This document shows, piece by piece, positions 4,223 to 37,205 of a stretch of 64,000 bases of DNA (position 1 is its first letter; each line of letters starts with the position of its first letter). Under the pieces are notes generated by a model. It worked only from the letters and a program-made list of their open reading frames with translations, did no database searches and was not told the origin of the DNA. The DNA is from Rhodococcus marinonascens NBRC 14363. Its GTDB lineage: Bacteria > Actinomycetota > Actinomycetes > Mycobacteriales > Mycobacteriaceae. The DNA lies in contig NZ_BCXB01000002.1 of the NCBI RefSeq assembly GCF_001894885.1, positions 1 through 64,000 on the forward strand. The letters run 5' to 3'. Both the position numbers and the translations under genes were made by a program.

Positions 4223-5562
4223 GCGTCGACGGTACCGCCAAGCACGCGGGCCAGTGCATCCACGGCGGCGTCGAGTTCGGCCGCCGTCACGGTAAGGGGA
4301 GGCCGGAATCTGATTCCCCGCTTGCCGGTCGCCAGGATCAATACTCGCTCCCGATCTCTCAGGTCCGCCACCACGCAGTCACGTAGCTGCGGCGTCGGAA
4401 GCGTGATCGCACACATCAGGCCCCGCCCTCTCGGTTCGGTGACGTCGGGATGCGAGAGTGCGAGTTCGCGCAGTCGTTGCAGGAGGTGGGCTCCGGTCAG
4501 CCTCGCCCGGTCGACGAGTCGATCCTGCTCGATCACCTCGAGGATCCGCCGTGACCGCACCATGTCCGCGAGGTTGCCACCCCAGGTGGAATTGATTCGC
4601 GAACCGACGGCAAAAACGTTTTCGGGGACGTCGTCCACGCGACCGCCGGCCATGATTCCGCAGACCTGCGTCTTCTTACCGAAGGCCACTACGTCGGGGT
4701 GCACAGCGAGCTGCTGATAAGCCCACGCCGTACCGGTGAGACCGCACCCGGTCTGCACCTCGTCGAACACGAACAAGGCGTCGTTCTCGTGGCACAGGGC
4801 TTCCATCGCCTGGAAGAACTCCGGGCGGAAGTGGTGATCTCCGCCCTCCCCTTGGATCGGCTCCGCAATGAAACATGCCACGTCCGAAGGGTTCTCGGCG
4901 AACGCATGCCGCGCCTGCTCGAGCGCGCGTCGCTCGGCCTCTTCGACGTCACGACCGTCGGCAAGGTAGGGGGCGTCGATGCGGGGCCAGTCGAACTTGG
5001 GGAATCGGGCCACCTTGCCTGGTTCGGTGTTGGTAAGTGACATGGTGTATCCACTGCGACCGTGGAACGCCTCGGTCAGGTGGAGCACTTTCGTCCCGAG
5101 CGCCGGATCGAGGCCGCGTTGTTCGTTGAGCCTGCTCTTCCAGTCGAACGCGACCTTGAGGGCGTTCTCGACGGCGAGGGCGCCGCCGTCGATGAAGAAG
5201 AGGTGGGGTAGTGCGGGGTCTCCGAGGACGCGGGCGAACGTCTCGACGAAACGCGCCATCGGGATGGTGTAAATGTCCGAGTTGCTCGGCTTGTTGATCG
5301 CCGCCGCAGCCAATTCTCGACGGAAGGCGTCGTCGTCCGCGAGTTCCGGATGGTTCATCCCCAGGGCCGACGAGGCGAAGAATCCGAACATGTCCAGGTA
5401 TGTTGTGCCGTCCCGTTGATCGACGAGGTGCGCCCCGCGCGAACGTTCCAGGTCGAGCACCAGATCGAAGCCGTCGACGAGAATGCGCTCGCGCAGTACG
5501 TCATGTACTCGGCTCGCAGGGAGATCGCCTTCACTTCCCGAGGATCGAATCGCTGTGCTCAT
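4219..5562 (-). CDS. lat: L-lysine 6-transaminase
   Basis: Class III PLP aminotransferase, 447 aa, the usual length for Lat. It moves the epsilon-amino group of lysine to 2-oxoglutarate, giving alpha-aminoadipate semialdehyde (in equilibrium with piperideine-6-carboxylate) and glutamate. Visible: the phosphate-binding region around residues 122-135, FVFDEVQTGCG (about 265-274) carrying the PLP-contacting Asp and Gln, and the PLP Lys in FGKKTQ (about residue 296). Gene order lat-lrpA divergent from pcd is the same as in M. tuberculosis Rv3290c-Rv3293, which supports this specific call. It overlaps the phosphatase gene downstream. Confidence 0.95.
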   Translation of the reverse strand: MSTAIRSSGSEGDLPASRVHDVLRERILVDGFDLVLDLERSRGAHLVDQRDGTTYLDMFGFFASSALGMNHPELADDDAFRRELAAAAINKPSNSDIYTIPMARFVETFARVLGDPALPHLFFIDGGALAVENALKVAFDWKSRLNEQRGLDPALGTKVLHLTEAFHGRSGYTMSLTNTEPGKVARFPKFDWPRIDAPYLADGRDVEEAERRALEQARHAFAENPSDVACFIAEPIQGEGGDHHFRPEFFQAMEALCHENDALFVFDEVQTGCGLTGTAWAYQQLAVHPDVVAFGKKTQVCGIMAGGRVDDVPENVFAVGSRINSTWGGNLADMVRSRRILEVIEQDRLVDRARLTGAHLLQRLRELALSHPDVTEPRGRGLMCAITLPTPQLRDCVVADLRDRERVLILATGKRGIRFRPPLTVTAAELDAAVDALARVLGGTVDA

Positions 5563-5627
5563 GCCAAGAGATTACGCCAAATCTCCTGCCCCGTTGCCGC
5601 AAGACAGAAATATATTCGGTGTGTAAT

Positions 5628-6092
5628 CTACTTCTCGTAAAATGTTTGCAAGATGATCGTGCTGCGGGTATGTACGTTCGCGGTGGCACGAATCTCCTGC
5701 AAAAGGTGTTCCAACTCCAGCGGCGAGGAGACGCGAACGAGTAGCACATAGCTCTCGTCCCCGGCCACCGAGTGACACGCCTCGATCGCAGGAATGTTCC
5801 GCAACCGGGCCGGCGCATCGTCGGGTTGCGACGGATCGAGAGGAGTGATGGCGACGAAGGCGGAAAGGCTCTGCCCAAGCGCACCCGGATCGATCTTCGC
5901 GGTGTACCCGCCAATCACTTTCCGGGCCTCGAGTCTGCGCACCCTGGACTGCACCGCCGAGATCGACAGCCCCGACCTCTCGGCGAGGGTCGCCAGAGTC
6001 GCCCGACCGTCGGCCACCAACTCCTGTATCAATACCCGATCGATGTCGTCGAGAGGAGGATGGGTTGTGTCGCCGCGAGAAGATTCCACCAC
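5628..6092 (-). CDS. lrpA: Lrp/AsnC-family regulator of lysine catabolism
   Basis: A 154-aa Lrp/AsnC regulator: N-terminal winged HTH (DDIDRVLIQELVADGR then LAERSGLSISAVQSRVRRLE), followed by an AsnC effector-binding ligand domain. Starts at GTG 6092. It sits upstream of lat on the same strand and divergent from pcd, so the likely role is amino-acid-responsive control of both; this fits M. tuberculosis LrpA, whose gene has the same neighbours. The effector (lysine or another amino acid) is inferred. Confidence 0.92.
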   Translation of the reverse strand: MVESSRGDTTHPPLDDIDRVLIQELVADGRATLATLAERSGLSISAVQSRVRRLEARKVIGGYTAKIDPGALGQSLSAFVAITPLDPSQPDDAPARLRNIPAIEACHSVAGDESYVLLVRVSSPLELEHLLQEIRATANVHTRSTIILQTFYEK

Positions 6093-6270
6093 CAGCGCAG
6101 GTTAACCCAGCGGAGGTGCATCATGGTTAAACGTCGGAGCACCGGGCCCGCCTCGCCGGGGTACCCACCTCAAGCGATCTGGTCGATGCCGGACAACTAT
6201 GCCCGCCCATGCGCGACCCGTTCAAGTTTCACCGACAGCAGCAGGACGAACCCCTAGAGAGGACATTATC
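6093..6270. promoter_or_regulatory. Divergent lrpA/pcd control region
   Basis: A 178-bp intergenic stretch separating lrpA and pcd. It contains GGTTAAC at 6100-6106 and GGTTAA at 6125-6130, phased about 25 bp apart. Spaced short repeats are compatible with binding by an Lrp octamer, but the assignment is speculative. The pcd ribosome site AGAGAGGA lies at 6256-6263. Confidence 0.4.
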
Positions 6271-7812
6271 GTGAACCTTCCCGCCCCCGAGGATCTCTGT
6301 CGACGCGCCGAGGAAGCGCTGGTCAAGTGCGGCGCAGACCTCGGCGATGCCGGAGGTGCGCTCGTCGCACGCACCCCGATCACCGGCACCGAACTGCGCA
6401 CCGTCGCGGCTAACAGCGCGGACGACGTGGATCGAGCGGTCACGGCGGCGCACGAGGCGTTCGCGCGGTGGCGTTCGGTGCCCGCCCCCCAGCGCGGCGC
6501 CGTGGTTCGCCGGCTGGGGCAGCTACTGACCGAGCACAAGGAAGATCTCGCCGAGCTCGTGACACTCGAGGCGGGCAAGATCCCGTCCGAGGCGCAGGGC
6601 GAAGTGCAGGAGATGATCGACATCTGCGAATTCGCGGTCGGCCTGTCGCGTCAGCTGTACGGCAAGACGATGGCATCGGAACGGCCCGGGCACCGTCTGA
6701 TGGAGACGTGGCACCCGCTGGGGGTTGTCGGGGTGATCTCCGCATTCAATTTCCCTGTGGCGGTGTGGTCGTGGAATACCGCCCTCGCACTGGTGTGCGG
6801 CGACACCGTGGTCTGGAAGCCGTCCGAGCAGACCCCGCTGACCGCCATAGCCTGCGACGCCCTACTCGCCCGGGCCGCTCGCGACGTCGGCGCGCCCGCC
6901 GGAATCCACGCGCTGATCCAGGGTTCGGCGGATGTAGGTGAGCGACTCGTAGACGACCCACGTGTGGCGCTGGTCAGTGCGACCGGATCGGTGCGGATGG
7001 GACGCACCGTGGGGCCGCGAGTTGCCGCCCGATTCGGCAAGTGCCTTCTCGAACTCGGAGGCAACAACGCTGCGATCGTGGCGCCGTCGGCCGACCTCGA
7101 TCTCGCCGTGCGGGGCATCGTCTTCTCTGCGGCAGGTACCGCAGGCCAGCGCTGCACGTCGCTGCGGCGGTTGATCGTGCACACCTCCGTCGCCGACGAG
7201 GTGGTGGAGCGGGTCGCTTCGGCGTACGGCCAACTGAAGGTTGGGAATCCGTTCGACGACGGTGTCCTCGTCGGTCCACTGGTGAACCGGGCATCGTTCG
7301 AGGCCATGCAGACCGCGCTCGACAAGGCGCGAGCCGACGGAGGAACCGTGGTGTCCGGCGGTGATCGGCACGGCGGCAGAGACGCCAATCACGGGAACGG
7401 CGAGGACGACGCATACTACGTCTCGCCCGCGCTGGTGCGCATGCCCGCACAGACGTCCGTGGTCCAGGAGGAGACGTTCGCACCCATCCTCTACGTCCTC
7501 ACCTACGACGAGTTCGACGAAGCCGTCGCACTGCACAACGCTGTGCCGCAAGGCCTTTCGTCTGCGATATTCACGACGGATCAGCGCGAGGCCGAACAGT
7601 TCCTCTCCTCCGACGGCTCGGACTGCGGCATCGCGAACGTCAACATCGGCACCTCCGGCGCGGAGATCGGTGGGGCGTTCGGCGGCGAGAAAGAGACCGG
7701 TGGTGGCCGCGAATCAGGCTCCGACGCCTGGAAGGCATACATGCGCCGGGCCACGAACACCGTCAACTACTCCGACGAACTACCGCTCGCTCAGGGCGTC
7801 GAGTTCAGCTGA
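6271..7812 (+). CDS. pcd: Alpha-aminoadipate semialdehyde / piperideine-6-carboxylate dehydrogenase
   Basis: NAD(P)-dependent aldehyde dehydrogenase, 513 aa from GTG 6271; AGAGAGGA at 6256-6263 supports this start over an upstream in-frame ATG at 6199. It oxidises the semialdehyde made by Lat to alpha-aminoadipate. Seen: FNFPVAVWSWN cofactor region, catalytic Glu261 in LLELGGNN, catalytic Cys295 in GQRCTSLRR, and the C-terminal FGGEKETGGGRESGSDAWK pattern typical of the ALDH7 (AASADH) subgroup. That subgroup pattern plus the neighbouring lat makes the substrate call firm. Confidence 0.95.
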   Translation: MNLPAPEDLCRRAEEALVKCGADLGDAGGALVARTPITGTELRTVAANSADDVDRAVTAAHEAFARWRSVPAPQRGAVVRRLGQLLTEHKEDLAELVTLEAGKIPSEAQGEVQEMIDICEFAVGLSRQLYGKTMASERPGHRLMETWHPLGVVGVISAFNFPVAVWSWNTALALVCGDTVVWKPSEQTPLTAIACDALLARAARDVGAPAGIHALIQGSADVGERLVDDPRVALVSATGSVRMGRTVGPRVAARFGKCLLELGGNNAAIVAPSADLDLAVRGIVFSAAGTAGQRCTSLRRLIVHTSVADEVVERVASAYGQLKVGNPFDDGVLVGPLVNRASFEAMQTALDKARADGGTVVSGGDRHGGRDANHGNGEDDAYYVSPALVRMPAQTSVVQEETFAPILYVLTYDEFDEAVALHNAVPQGLSSAIFTTDQREAEQFLSSDGSDCGIANVNIGTSGAEIGGAFGGEKETGGGRESGSDAWKAYMRRATNTVNYSDELPLAQGVEFS

Positions 7813-31047: not shown

Positions 31048-31515
31048 TTGAAGAAGTCAGTTCGCACCGCAGCAACCGCAGTACTCGCCGCTCCGCTCCT
31101 CGCCGCCGTCTTCGCGGCGCCGGCCAGCGTAGATGAGCACGACGACCTCGTCACACTCACTGCCGTCGCCGACGGCAGTGATGTCACCATCACCATCACC
31201 AACGGCCACGACATGAATGTGGATTGCACCTGGACTGCGGTGAACGCCGCGGACGACACTGCCGATCTCGAGGGCGAAGGAACTGTCAGGGACGAGGACG
31301 TCACGCTGGCCTTCACCGAGACGGGCGTCGCCGACGGTAGCTACACCGTCACTTGGGCTTGCGACCGGGAGGGCACGGAATGGGGAACCGAGGGCGAAAA
31401 CGCGACCGCCCTGGCGCCCGAGTTCACTATCGGCACCGTAGCCGGAACCGGCAGCTCCGCTAGCGTGACCGGCGTGATCGGCAACCTGATCAGCCTCTTG
31501 CCCGCTGGCAGCTAG
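31048..31515 (+). CDS. Secreted protein A of a duplicated pair
   Basis: A 155-aa exported protein starting at TTG 31048 behind AAGAGGAA. The Sec signal peptide (MKKSVRTAATAV..., cleavage near APAS, residue about 27) is identical to that of gene B. The mature part is acidic and predicted mostly beta; it keeps VDCTW and VTWAC cysteines that align with VECDW and VTWSC in gene B, suggesting one disulfide in an Ig-like fold. A strong terminator follows. No enzymatic motif. Possibly an envelope-associated or host/competitor-exposed protein; unknown. Confidence 0.75.
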   Translation: MKKSVRTAATAVLAAPLLAAVFAAPASVDEHDDLVTLTAVADGSDVTITITNGHDMNVDCTWTAVNAADDTADLEGEGTVRDEDVTLAFTETGVADGSYTVTWACDREGTEWGTEGENATALAPEFTIGTVAGTGSSASVTGVIGNLISLLPAGS

Positions 31516-32437: not shown

Positions 32438-32890
32438 TTGAAGAAGTCAGTTCGTACCGCAGCAACCGCAGTGCTCGCCGCTCCGCTCCTCGCCGCCGTC
32501 TTCGCTGCGCCGGCCAGCGCAGCACCCCATGACGTCACACTCTCGGCTGCGGTCGAGGGCAGCGACTTTACCGTCACGATCGTCAACGACAGCCCGAACC
32601 AGGTGGAGTGCGATTGGTTCGCAATGAGCAGCACGTCATCCACGGATGAACTCACGAGCGGTGGATTCGTCAGGTCCGACGCCGACGCCGACTGCACCAA
32701 GAGGAACGTCGCCGACGGCAATTGCGAGGTCACCTGGTCCTGCGCGGATAGAGATGGCGGCCAGTGGGGAACGGACGGGCTGTCCGACCCCGCGACAGCC
32801 CAGCCGTTCAAGTTCACTGTCGGGGAGCAGCAGGGCGGTTCAGGCAGCTTGGGCAGTCTCGACTTCGGCAGCTTTGGCTCCGGCAGCTGA
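32438..32890 (+). CDS. Secreted protein B of a duplicated pair
   Basis: A 150-aa paralogue of protein A, starting at TTG 32438 after AAGAGGAA. The first 27 residues are identical to A; the mature part is clearly diverged but keeps VECDW and VTWSC, and adds a second Cys pair (DADCTK, NCEV). It ends in a Gly/Ser/Phe tail (GSLGSLDFGSFGSGS), a style shared with the secreted protein at 12550, while A lacks the repeat tail. Followed by its own terminator. Function unknown. Confidence 0.75.
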   Translation: MKKSVRTAATAVLAAPLLAAVFAAPASAAPHDVTLSAAVEGSDFTVTIVNDSPNQVECDWFAMSSTSSTDELTSGGFVRSDADADCTKRNVADGNCEVTWSCADRDGGQWGTDGLSDPATAQPFKFTVGEQQGGSGSLGSLDFGSFGSGS

Positions 32891-33753: not shown

Positions 33754-34083
33754 ATGACGATGAACGAGTTGATCGCGGATACCGCAAGTATCACCGAATT
33801 CGCTGCCACGACCTCGGCCATGTCAGCGGAGGTCCGGGCGGCCGAGCTGGGCGCCTCCGCTGTGGGGCCGTTGCTGCTAGGGCCGGTTTTCGGAGTGATC
33901 GGCGGTGAATTCGTCGCCGCCTTCTCCGCCGCACACGCTGCGCACCTGTCATCAATCGAGAAGCTGTCCGGGGTGCTCGGCGGAATCAGTACCACGGCCC
34001 TGGTGAACGCCGCCAATTATGAGGGCATCGACCTGGCCACCACAGCGGCACTCGCCGCGAATGCCGCCGGACTGGACGGCTGA
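33754..34083 (+). CDS. EspC-like type VII secretion target
   Basis: A 109-aa, Ala-rich, largely helical protein of the ESX secretion-associated (EspC, DUF2580) type. A central hydrophobic stretch (GPLLLGPVFGVIGGEFVAAF) lies between two amphipathic helices, and the C-terminal YEGID (residues 89-93) fits the YxxxD/E export signal of type VII systems. ATG 33754 has a G-rich ribosome site directly upstream. The next gene starts one base after its stop, so it is probably coexpressed with the NlpC/P60 protein, for which it may be a secretion partner. No ESX machinery lies in the window. Confidence 0.75.
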   Translation: MTMNELIADTASITEFAATTSAMSAEVRAAELGASAVGPLLLGPVFGVIGGEFVAAFSAAHAAHLSSIEKLSGVLGGISTTALVNAANYEGIDLATTAALAANAAGLDG

Positions 34084-34084
34084 C

Positions 34085-35248
34085 GTGATTCCCATCGACC
34101 TGCTCACCCGCCCGATGATCGACCTGGTCGGGGCATTCGGCAGCGGCATCCTCCCGTCCGGCGGCCCTGCCGACGCCCTCCGGGCATCGTCGGTCGCGCT
34201 CGACGCCGTCCACGACACCGGACGTACCGCCATCAGTTCCATCTACGGTGACTGGCAGGGCAAGGGCGCCACCGGCGCGATCGTGAAGACCGAAGAAGCG
34301 CAGCGGTCGGCCGTCGCGATCTCCGATTGTGGCAACGACATGGCTGCCGTCGTGGCCGAGGCCTCCGAGATCGTCCGGGCCGGAATGCTGCAACTCGAGG
34401 AGATCCTGCAGTCGTTCATCTCCCTCGCGGTCGCGTCAGGCTCGACCCTGGCCACCCCTCCGGGCCAGGCCATGATCATCGCGGCCGCTCACGATCATCT
34501 CGGCAGAGCCACCGTGGTGGTCGCGACGGTACGGGCCGAACTCAGCGGGCAGACCGGCAAGATTCTCGCCCTCACACCGGCGGACGACGTTCCCACCGCA
34601 CCCGCGGCGACCGCACCGGCGAGCACCACTGCGGCCTCTGCCGCAGCCGGCTCACCAGCGAGCTCCGACGCGGTGAGCCGTGCGGCGTCAGGATTCGCGA
34701 GTCCGCCCGGTCCGTCACCGATATCCGGCCTGATGAGCCAGGTGTCGAACATCGCGTCCCGGCGCGGAGGCGGGACGCGGGCAGATTCCCTCCTCGCCGC
34801 GTCCGAGGGTACCGCTCGCGGACCGTCCACGACGGATTCCGGGCACAGCGGTGAAGGCGTCGAAGTGGTCCTGCCCGACGGCAGCACCGCGCTCGCCCCC
34901 AACCGGGAAGCCGCCGAGGCCGTCCGCAACGCACTGTCGCAGCAGGGCGTCGCCTACGTCTGGGGCGGAACGTCCCCCGGGCAGGGCCTCGACTGCAGCG
35001 GGCTGACGCAGTGGGCGTATGGCGAAGCGGGCGTGGGTATTCCGCGTTTGGCGCAGGAACAGAACGTCGGGATGACGGTCAATCAGGGCGACCTCATGCC
35101 CGGAGACCTCGCCGTGTGGGACGGACACGTGGCGATGGTGATCGGAAACGGTCAACTCGTGGAGGCCGGCGATCCCGTGCAGGTCGGCCCGATCCGTACC
35201 GGCAACAGCAACATGGACTTCTACGGCTTCTATCGACCAACGAAATGA
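34085..35248 (+). CDS. WXG-like/NlpC-P60 fusion, putative secreted peptidoglycan endopeptidase
   Basis: A 387-aa protein in three parts. Residues about 1-165 are helical with a W-x-G turn (YGDWQGKG, Trp57), as in ESX substrates. A Pro/Ala/Ser-rich linker spans about 165-270. The C-terminal NlpC/P60 cysteine peptidase domain has the motif DCSGLTQW with Cys304 and GHVAMV with His348, which would cut peptide stems of peptidoglycan. There is no Sec signal peptide, so export by a type VII system is likely. GTG 34085 follows the previous stop; the end overlaps the next gene (ATGA). Confidence 0.82.
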   Translation: MIPIDLLTRPMIDLVGAFGSGILPSGGPADALRASSVALDAVHDTGRTAISSIYGDWQGKGATGAIVKTEEAQRSAVAISDCGNDMAAVVAEASEIVRAGMLQLEEILQSFISLAVASGSTLATPPGQAMIIAAAHDHLGRATVVVATVRAELSGQTGKILALTPADDVPTAPAATAPASTTAASAAAGSPASSDAVSRAASGFASPPGPSPISGLMSQVSNIASRRGGGTRADSLLAASEGTARGPSTTDSGHSGEGVEVVLPDGSTALAPNREAAEAVRNALSQQGVAYVWGGTSPGQGLDCSGLTQWAYGEAGVGIPRLAQEQNVGMTVNQGDLMPGDLAVWDGHVAMVIGNGQLVEAGDPVQVGPIRTGNSNMDFYGFYRPTK

Positions 35249-35601
35249 CAGGAATCATGTTTCCCCCAACCCCACCCCACGCCGGAACGACGGCCACAAT
35301 GAGCAACCGCTCCGGCACCATCTCGGTAAAGACCACCGAGCACGGCCTTCCGCTCGAACTCCGCATCGATCCGCGCGAACTCCGCTACGGCGGCCGGCGA
35401 CTCGCAGACGAAATCCTGACGCTGTGCCGTCGCTCGGCCGCGGAGGCTGGGGCGCGGCGCCGCGACGAACTCGCCGGCGACGGCATGCCCGCCCGCGTGC
35501 TGGACGGACTCGGCCTGCCCACGCGGGCCGACATAGCCGCCGCGCAGGTGATCGAGGACGAGGAAGAGCCCACCCCGACTAGTTGGATGACACGACTGTG
35601 A
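35245..35601 (+). CDS. YbaB/EspL-like small protein
   Basis: A 118-aa protein starting at ATG 35245 inside the stop of the peptidase gene (ATGA overlap). The core GTISVKTTEHGLPLELRIDPREL followed by a helix resembles the strand-helix pattern of YbaB/EbfC-like proteins; in ESX loci such proteins (EspL type) accompany secreted substrates. A chaperone or nucleoid-like role is inferred from family and position only. Confidence 0.65.
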   Translation: MTGIMFPPTPPHAGTTATMSNRSGTISVKTTEHGLPLELRIDPRELRYGGRRLADEILTLCRRSAAEAGARRRDELAGDGMPARVLDGLGLPTRADIAAAQVIEDEEEPTPTSWMTRL

Positions 35602-35903
35602 GCGAACACGACATGGATGCGATCGTCGGGCGGGCGGCCGACCAGGTGAACCTGCTCGAGGAAGCCCTCGCCGGTCTTCAATCGATCAAGGCGCGCGCGT
35701 CGAGTGAGTCCGACCAGGTCACCGCAGAGGTGGACGGAAACGGCAACCTGACGGGCCTGTGGATGGACGATTCCATCTCCACTCTCGACGCCCGCACACT
35801 CGCGGCACTGATCACGAGCACGACCCACGAGGCCGCCCGCCTCGCCACCGAACAGCGCACGCAGGTGATGAAGACACTGCAGGACGCCTTCGGGACGGTG
35901 TAG
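35598..35903 (+). CDS. YbaB/EbfC family protein
   Basis: A 101-aa protein if started at GTG 35598, which overlaps the previous TGA (GTGA); an in-frame TTG at 35583 would add five residues. It shows the YbaB layout: N-terminal helix with a coiled-coil look (QVNLLEEALAGLQSIKARAS), a beta hairpin (VTAEVDGNGNLTGLWMDDS) and a long C-terminal helix. Last gene of the coupled four-gene set, probably a partner of the preceding YbaB-like protein. Confidence 0.72.
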   Translation: MSEHDMDAIVGRAADQVNLLEEALAGLQSIKARASSESDQVTAEVDGNGNLTGLWMDDSISTLDARTLAALITSTTHEAARLATEQRTQVMKTLQDAFGTV

Positions 35904-35951: not shown

Positions 35952-37205
35952 ATGGCTGGAGACATCGTCCCTATCGAACTCCGTCTCACCGACGGCGACT
36001 TCGCAACACTGTGGGCACCACTGTGGCGGGAAGGCGACGACGAGTGGGAAGCATTCCTGGGTCACGAAGATGACCTCTATGCGTTCGGATCGGTGGCGGA
36101 ATTGGCTGCCTTCATTCGCACGAATACCGACAACGATTTGGTCGAACATCCCGCGTGGAGCGTTGTGTCGGGACTGTCCGCTGCCGAACTCGAACCCGAA
36201 GAGAACTTCTCCTTCGACCTGATCGGGGTGCCGGCACTGGCGGCGAGCGACCCCGAGGACCTCGTCGTCAGCGAACTCGAAGACGCGCTCAATATGGTGC
36301 GCAACATCGGTGAGGTCTGCGATCTGGACACGGTCACCAAGTTCTTCAACGCGAACCCCATTCTCGGCGCGCTCCAAGCAGGCGTCAGCGCGTTCGAGGG
36401 GCGCGAGGGTGAGCAACTGTGGGGCCAGATCGGCCTCACTATCTCGAAAGGCTGGGACGGCGTCCTCGACGCCGTCGACGCCGTCGTGGCGACCCCCGCC
36501 GTGGACGCCGAGGCGGTAGCAGTCGCCGAGGCCGAACTGGTGGCAGCCGACGAGAACACCGTCGACGTGGACGACGTCGTCGAAGAAGCTGAAGAGGACG
36601 CGGAATTCGTCTCCCTCGATGCCGACGACGACAACGAGGACGAGGACGAGGACGACTATTCGTTCTGGAGCGAGGCGGGTGTAGACCCCATCAAGATCAT
36701 CACCTCCGGAGAAACGTACTTCACGCTCCGCTGCTATATGGACGATGAGGCGATCTTCCTCGGTCGTGAGGGGATGATTTTCGTCTTCACCTCGGAGCGT
36801 GCGCTCGCCCGGTTCCTCGCCGACAACCACGAGCACGCGCTCGCCAAGATCAGCACGTACGATCAGATCCAGGTGGCGGCGGTAGACGGGTCACTCGGGG
36901 TCGAGGTCACCGAGGGGAACGTGTACGTCCTACCGGGACTCGCCGACGACTTGGTCGCCGGGCCGAATTCTGTCGACGCGGATCAGCTCGATCTCGCCGT
37001 CGAATTGTTTACCGACGCAGCAGATTTTGCAGACGACAAGTCGGTGGAAGCCGCACTCGCCGCGTCCGAACCGCTCGGCTGGTACGTATCGTTCGTCCTC
37101 AACCCGGATCCGGGGCGGTTGGCGCCGAGCGCACCGTTCGATACCGAGGCCGAGGCCTGGCGAATGCTCGAACGTGAATTCGAGGCCCGCCTCCGAAAGG
37201 CATGA
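35952..37205 (+). CDS. Conserved acidic protein with two related domains (Rv3311-like)
   Basis: A 417-aa soluble protein. The N-terminal part (FATLWAPLWREGDDEWEAFLG, then FGSVAELAAFIRTNTDNDL) has a counterpart after residue about 240 (FTLRCYMDDEAIFLG, then FTSERALARFLADNHEHAL), suggesting an internal duplication. The two are joined by a long linker of almost only Asp, Glu, Ala and Val (residues about 180-235). M. tuberculosis Rv3311, in the same place before add, is a homologue of unknown function. No signal peptide or catalytic motif seen. Confidence 0.82.
   Translation: MAGDIVPIELRLTDGDFATLWAPLWREGDDEWEAFLGHEDDLYAFGSVAELAAFIRTNTDNDLVEHPAWSVVSGLSAAELEPEENFSFDLIGVPALAASDPEDLVVSELEDALNMVRNIGEVCDLDTVTKFFNANPILGALQAGVSAFEGREGEQLWGQIGLTISKGWDGVLDAVDAVVATPAVDAEAVAVAEAELVAADENTVDVDDVVEEAEEDAEFVSLDADDDNEDEDEDDYSFWSEAGVDPIKIITSGETYFTLRCYMDDEAIFLGREGMIFVFTSERALARFLADNHEHALAKISTYDQIQVAAVDGSLGVEVTEGNVYVLPGLADDLVAGPNSVDADQLDLAVELFTDAADFADDKSVEAALAASEPLGWYVSFVLNPDPGRLAPSAPFDTEAEAWRMLEREFEARLRKA

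Follow-up and report, generated by a model that had tools for sequence, protein, structure and literature searches.

We describe a cassette of four same-strand genes, named A, B, C and D in order (33754-35903), in a 64,000-nucleotide stretch of Rhodococcus marinonascens NBRC 14363 (contig NZ_BCXB01000002.1, positions 1 to 64,000), referred to here as the window. We consider it probable that A and B form an Esp-type substrate pair of the type VII secretion system ESX-4, with C and D as helpers, and that the NlpC/P60 peptidase carried by B acts on the cell's own peptidoglycan. In this proposal, A, an EspC/EspF-like protein with a YxxxD motif, would pair with the N-terminal WxG domain of B to give a folded secretion unit, C and D would be the dedicated chaperones of the exported pair, and the EccC of the single ESX-4 machine would export it, after which the peptidase domain would cut the peptide stems of the wall, either in growth and division or to clear space for the machine. 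The parts are of known kinds, and the new element is the combination of an Esp-type pair, a YbaB pair, an NlpC/P60 cargo and ESX-4; among the papers listed by searches of open-access PMC, none describes the cassette in its title or at the start of its abstract.

Gene A (33754-34083, + strand) encodes a predicted EspC/EspF-like type VII substrate partner. Its second ATG (33760) is the likelier start, as the A-family alignment has its conserved start at Met3. It belongs to the EspC family (PF10824, 6.4e-8, above cut-off), a profile matched by all 34 aligned members, and its YxxxD motif (YEGID) has a YxxxD/E counterpart near the end of 33 of the 34 proteins. Gene B (34085-35248, +) follows after a 1-nt gap with a GTG start and encodes an EspA/EspE-like (WxG) N-domain, a linker and an NlpC/P60 (C40) peptidase domain (34946-35209, +). 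Residues 288-374 of B match PF00877 (8.9e-17, 61.4 bits vs a cut-off of 23), and C304, H348 and E360 are unchanged across 24 aligned NlpC-type proteins; in RipA, a glutamate is the third catalytic residue. Gene C (35245-35601, +), a divergent YbaB-like protein, overlaps B at ATGA, and gene D (35598-35903, +), also YbaB-like, overlaps C at GTGA; each is predicted to be one half of a chaperone. An earlier note, made from the sequence alone, had proposed this layout with its junctions, the EspC-like nature of A with its YxxxD end, and a peptidase with Cys304 and His348, and all of these were confirmed.

The N-domain of B (residues 1-161, 34085-34567, +, with W57-Q-G) is read as a WXG-type secretion domain from its relatives, of which 11 of 37 match Pfam WXG100 (best 1.3e-5), 17 of 37 match TIGR03930 WXG100 at E up to 0.1 (best 1.1e-5), 5 of 37 match EspA_EspE (best 1.4e-5) and 26 of 37 have a strict WxG. 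A PDB profile search with this domain gave weak CFP-10/ESAT-6 matches only (E 0.014-0.021, the rest to 0.98). By simple composition (hydrophobic mean and K/R count; no signal-peptide predictor was run), B has no Sec-like start, which bears out another claim of the note: its best 15-residue hydrophobic mean is 1.29 (0.72-1.94 in the 24-protein B set) vs 2.19 in two Sec-type neighbours, and its first eight residues contain no K/R, compared with three in those neighbours. RipA, RipB and RipC share the catalytic domain family of B but are Sec-exported; B instead combines a predicted WXG-type domain with a start that is not Sec-like. Its best NCBIfam match is to RipC (1.7e-18), at 67 of 425 bits far under the cut-off.

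Among the best 80 of at least 512 NlpC-type relatives of B, hereafter the named loci, A-B-C-D is contiguous in 67 (Rhodococcus, Nocardia, Skermania and others), and this linkage, which the note had proposed to look for, is more than chance. Among these loci, B is matched best in R. wratislaviensis (79%) and R. tibetensis (74%), the usual gene order is pmm-upp-A-B-C-D-satS, and overlaps of -4 were found at B/C in 41 and at C/D in 35 of the 67 loci, with starts picked by a rule of thumb. Of the 13 non-contiguous loci, five have A-B-SatS without C-D (L159, L163, L169, L170 and L172, where L denotes a fetched locus stretch), four are from Dietzia, where the C profile finds no C in place (L167, L168, L171 and L173), three have different genes right after B (L111, L112 and L115), and one lies near a contig end (L127). 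Across 151 genomes of the family, the N-domain of B has a match in 127, with two or more in 84 of them, and C has a match in 114 at E up to 1e-3; in genus g29, which we take to be Mycobacterium from its several EccB per genome, strong B matches are mostly lacking (2 of 7 strong), and C is carried by some members.

Distance covariation, an indirect measure whose data points here are not independent, was compared for ten pairs over the 67 contiguous loci, with the distances of upp, SatS and pmm removed. The strongest partial values were for C-D (0.83) and A-B N-domain (0.79), with the two halves of B at 0.58; in 29 representatives, the same pairs gave 0.81, 0.73 and 0.41. In 494 of 500 half-samples, C-D and A-B N-domain were again the top two of the ten, and the A-B N-domain value was reached in 0 of 999 permutations. 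These values would suit a complex of A with the N-domain of B and another of C with D.

The genome of the window (G000, where G denotes a genome; 4.92 Mb, 156 contigs) contains one EccB, one EccD, two WXG100 genes and EccE, in a locus with eccC, mycP and ribosomal-protein genes on both sides (eccC, mycP and the ribosomal genes named by eye). We read this system as ESX-4 with EccE, since EccB and EccD are single, EccE is present and the setting is ribosomal, and ESX-4 is also the sole system in the three Rhodococcus of a survey (PMC4791881, as far as its text was available). The earlier note had predicted an ESX system encoded elsewhere in the genome, which is what was found. A physical link is seen in other genomes. 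In G060 (L185), the order is eccC-A-B(NlpC)-C-D-esx-esx, so that the cassette lies inside the ESX-4 operon between eccC and a WXG100 pair, and a Pfam check confirmed FtsK/SpoIIIE and the two WXG100; the order is repeated in G013 of the same genus (L217). In a second genus (G025, L190), eccC is followed directly by A-B(NlpC)-C-D (5401-7597). These placements in two other genera, with whole cassettes among the ESX-4 genes or immediately behind them, support the note's type VII connection. More broadly, of 133 C places, 29 have a listed eccB no more than 15 kb away, compared with about 0.6% expected per eccB in a 5-Mb genome, although the 29 are not independent, several coming from one and the same genus or genome.

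The cassettes at ESX-4 also bear on the gene downstream. In the window, a SatS-like gene of the Rv3311 type (35952-37205, +; NF050072 3.8e-150, 500.5 bits, under the equivalog cut-off of 700) follows the cassette as a frequent 3' neighbour outside the cassette proper, and the note's remark that sapM occupies the corresponding place in M. tuberculosis agrees with a report that satS lies immediately downstream of sapM (PMC6333443, in the part available). B could accordingly be imagined as a SecA2 export with SatS as its chaperone, instead of an ESX-4 substrate, given that SatS follows in 76 of the 80 named loci and that M. tuberculosis satS is described as sharing an operon with its client sapM (PMC6333443). 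We regard this as quite unlikely. Cassettes located elsewhere are at ESX-4, and the stretches fetched for them (L185, L190 and L217) yielded no SatS; the SatS of G025 has stayed at the old site (L191); B also starts without a Sec-like sequence. The SatS neighbourhood may be mere synteny, since the wider pmm-upp...add-deoA order is itself conserved in the named loci. At the upp-SatS site of G025 (L191, ~6585-7495), A and a B without peptidase are found, with SatS still there.

Several observations weigh against export by ESX-4 as we propose it, besides the indirectness of covariation already stated. The B of the window itself falls under both the WXG100 and the EspA_EspE cut-offs, its EspA_EspE match being weak (E 0.024), with none at E 0.01 in the family-wide scan, and the cassette of the window lies ~115 kb from its ESX-4. 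G105 has no eccB, eccD or eccC (an FtsK-like match only) yet keeps A, B, C and D, with the usual full end of B and ~1.3 kb extra between B and C, so any dependence on ESX is less than absolute. In G034, eccB, eccD and eccC are again missing while A and B are kept; the end of its B is lost at an insertion with phage-like genes (by eye), and neither C nor D turned up in the 14 kb fetched. The eccB missing from G013 is accounted for, as the contig begins inside eccC. Conversely, EccB is present in 148 of the 151 family genomes, whereas the B N-domain match is absent in 24 of the 151, which indicates that ESX does not need the cassette.

The last two findings, the cassette of G105 and the genomes with EccB outnumbering those with B, also count against a variant in which B is an accessory of the secretion machine, an actinobacterial counterpart of EssH that opens peptidoglycan for ESX-4 assembly or for passage of its cargo. 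Cassettes at ESX-4 genes in two genera would be expected of such an accessory, and precedents exist: EssH is a dedicated hydrolase of the staphylococcal type VII system T7SSb, and two NLP/P60 hydrolases accompany a mycobacterial plasmid type VII system, according to the portion of PMC13059805 at hand. EssH of Staphylococcus aureus is likewise a peptidoglycan hydrolase tied to type VII secretion, but the same source describes it as having a CHAP domain and a Sec signal peptide and as not being a type VII substrate (PMC13059805), unlike B, which has no Sec-like start. We therefore view the accessory role as rather unlikely.

As a proposed substrate of ESX-4 with an enzyme domain, B could also be a lytic toxin that type VII secretion directs against other bacteria or a host, and the earlier note had seen in it the look of a secreted lytic toxin. 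Its layout of secretion domain, linker and enzyme is that of type VII toxins, and the N-domain carries other C-termini as well, namely an SLT transglycosylase (L068) and enzyme-less tails (five paralogues scanned). However, the mean pairwise identity of the 24 NlpC-type proteins is 0.75 in the peptidase and 0.45 in the N-domain, the reverse of a polymorphic toxin, in which the C-terminal domain would be more variable than the N-domain. Similarly, dN/dS over three comparisons is 0.075-0.128 for the peptidase and 0.078-0.115 for upp, with 0.135-0.365 for the N-domain and 0.243-0.651 for the linker. The cassette also occupies the same chromosomal site across the named genera, and no immunity gene adjoins B, which is followed in the window by C and D alone before satS (immunity genes elsewhere in the genome were not sought); the note had equally seen no obvious immunity protein. 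As the constraint on the peptidase domain is close to that on upp and no immunity gene lies next to B, a toxin is very unlikely, and that part of the note is not supported. Remodelling of the producer's own wall fits better, and the low dN/dS and high identity of the peptidase would suit a constant substrate, for example the cell's own wall. In L068 (5684-6868), a B-type N-domain is fused to the SLT transglycosylase (PF01464, 5.1e-11), a second kind of peptidoglycan-cutting cargo, and A, C and D were not found in the fetched stretch.

The two small proteins at the end of the cassette had been called YbaB-like in the note, and this holds directly for D and through relatives for C. D matches PF02575 (2.9e-10), as do all 24 aligned members; C alone gives a weak YbaB match (0.042), YbaB is matched by 6 of 23 C members (best 1.1e-4), and the C and D profiles align with each other (hhalign probability 94.3, E 9.6e-8). 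Searches with C gave nothing useful in a PDB profile search and no relevant match in NCBIfam. The Pfam family is named for DNA-binding YbaB/EbfC, so C and D might be nucleoid-associated regulators unrelated to export that share the operon by chance. We consider this most unlikely, as the same genome holds a separate, stronger YbaB (3.9e-31, at C54:9061) and D scores 22.8 bits against a cut-off of 49.45 in the YbaB/EbfC equivalog TIGR00103, which C does not match at all. Moreover, two distinct modules, as well as ESX loci, have C-D in the company of Esp-like pairs, and the YbaB-like EspH is reported to bind EspE while espE/espF mRNA is unchanged (PMC6107294, from the part seen).

The role of export chaperones for C and D finds its closest parallel in the ESX-1 sets EspE-EspF-EspH-EspL and EspA-EspC-EspD of Mycobacterium, which, going by their descriptions, share with the cassette an EspC-family partner, a WxG-type partner (in the cassette, the predicted N-domain of B) and YbaB-like helpers. 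In the accessible text of PMC6107294 and PMC6319747, EspH binds EspE and is required for EspE/EspF secretion, EspD stabilises EspA/EspC, EspL stabilises EspE/EspF/EspH and binds EspD, and both EspH and EspL resemble YbaB; EspH-like proteins are described there as unique to ESX-1 (PMC6107294). By analogy, the cassette of the window would hold a counterpart of each of these roles in one operon, plus an enzyme. It differs from the ESX-1 sets in being a single four-gene operon away from any ESX locus, in belonging to a host whose only EccB and EccD are those of ESX-4, and in the NlpC/P60 enzyme carried by B.

An order-level search with C matched 51 of 298 genomes, and the matches outside the family (best 4.1e-10) are read as distant YbaB. 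Outside the family, weak C-like matches are paired side by side in G350 (C1:4793312-4793931) and G224 (C1:7542805-7543334), so these are possible remote C-D pairs. In genus g8 (G007 and G037), C-D lie ~11 kb or less from eccB (L199, 6941-7665; L200, 6039-6760), and no B N-domain match was found genome-wide at E 0.01; C-D may serve other substrates there.

The cassette is not the only module of this kind. A paralogue, B', has the same N-domain as B and a Gly/Pro-rich tail, in many cases with a GDLPxVAPAVIG-like motif at its end, and no Pfam enzyme was found in the tails of five paralogues scanned. The B' of the window genome lies at C11:148609; it has an EspC-like gene of its own at C11:148013, and C-D were not found next to it. 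The order C-D-A-B' occurs in 17 of 72 loci with a classified B, and EccE and/or EccB are close to this second module in nine loci (L082, L178, L207, L208, L209, L211, L212, L214 and L215); in Tsukamurella tyrosinosolvens (NZ_LR134464.1), the genes after C-D-A-B' are PE, PPE, EspG, two WXG100 and EccE, and the annotation calls C, A and B' hypothetical. The enzyme type occurs without C-D, as A-B-NlpC-SatS, at nine loci (L080, L083, L089, L179, L181, L186, L197, L198 and L206), and in eight of these genomes a C place lies near B' elsewhere, with no C found in the ninth, G099 (L198). Reciprocally, nine A-B' loci have no C-D (L050, L072, L073, L074, L075, L077, L078, L087 and L194), and each of their genomes carries C-D at the NlpC locus. 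Thus, at 17 of the 18 loci with A-B and no C-D, the same genome has C beside another B; this count excludes the C-D loci and loci of other patterns (L068, L076, L176, L177, L180, L191, L202, L203 and L212). Exactly one C place occurs in 99 of 112 genomes with a typed C place, and two to four occur in the other 13, including Nocardia-type genomes. Where there is one C-D pair, we infer that it serves both modules. In view of the 17 of 18 loci, the note's description of the cassette as self-contained is only partly right.

Additional features surround the cassette. Two small proteins with near-identical Sec-type leaders are encoded between pmm and upp in the window (31048-31515 and 32438-32890), and further proteins with Sec-type leaders are found at the corresponding pmm-upp place of L056. 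In several genomes, inserted elements precede C, in or close to the final codons of gene B (GFYRP) (L112, 11100-11260; L201, 5404-6345; L202, 5564-19229; L111, 11173-13400; L216, 2000-5770). These are prophage- or integrative-element-like, with genes named by eye; in R. triatomae, a 16-bp core is common to the two ends, and in L202, C has a serine-recombinase-like gene at its border. The 3' end of gene B may be a recurrent integrase attachment site.

An origin of the cassette itself from a mobile element was rejected, as no cassette copy was seen on phage: a phage search with B gave 379 records, none covering over 80% of the query, and the 20 listed all fall at residues 225-385. Plasmid searches with A and with C gave no match, and the one with B gave 937 records, again none over 80% of the query; all but one of the 30 matches listed start at residue 218 or later, in the peptidase half. 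The exception (H21, Tsukamurella) is an N-domain match in a record that is called a plasmid yet carries ribosomal-protein genes. A role in anti-phage defence was likewise rejected, with no PADLOC hit for the four proteins.

ESX-4 is regarded as the ancestral ESX, and its function was called undetermined in 2016 (PMC4791881). Later work links it to EsxU/EsxT and mentions CpnT (PMC9401124), ESX-4 of M. abscessus is located at subpolar sites, where the authors point to cell expansion, and further substrates are still to be found according to authors in the field (PMC11791044); these sources were available in part. EsxU/EsxT are, like the proposed A-B pair, WXG-type substrates of this machine class, and a WXG100 pair adjoins the cassette in L185 and L217, but they have no enzyme domain and are described as a membrane-permeabilising heterodimer in M. 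abscessus (PMC9401124). We tentatively suggest, with more doubt than conviction, that an ancestral job of ESX-4 in mycolic-acid bacteria is the Sec-independent export of a chaperoned peptidoglycan endopeptidase, that the ESX-1 sets EspE/F/H/L and EspA/C/D descend from the four-gene module, with the enzyme swapped for non-enzymatic tails like those of B', and that a lone C-D pair serves the enzyme and its tail paralogue in trans. If our reading of the cassette is true, the poorly understood ESX-4 would gain a concrete, testable cargo candidate, and Esp-type substrates and YbaB-type export chaperones would extend beyond ESX-1.

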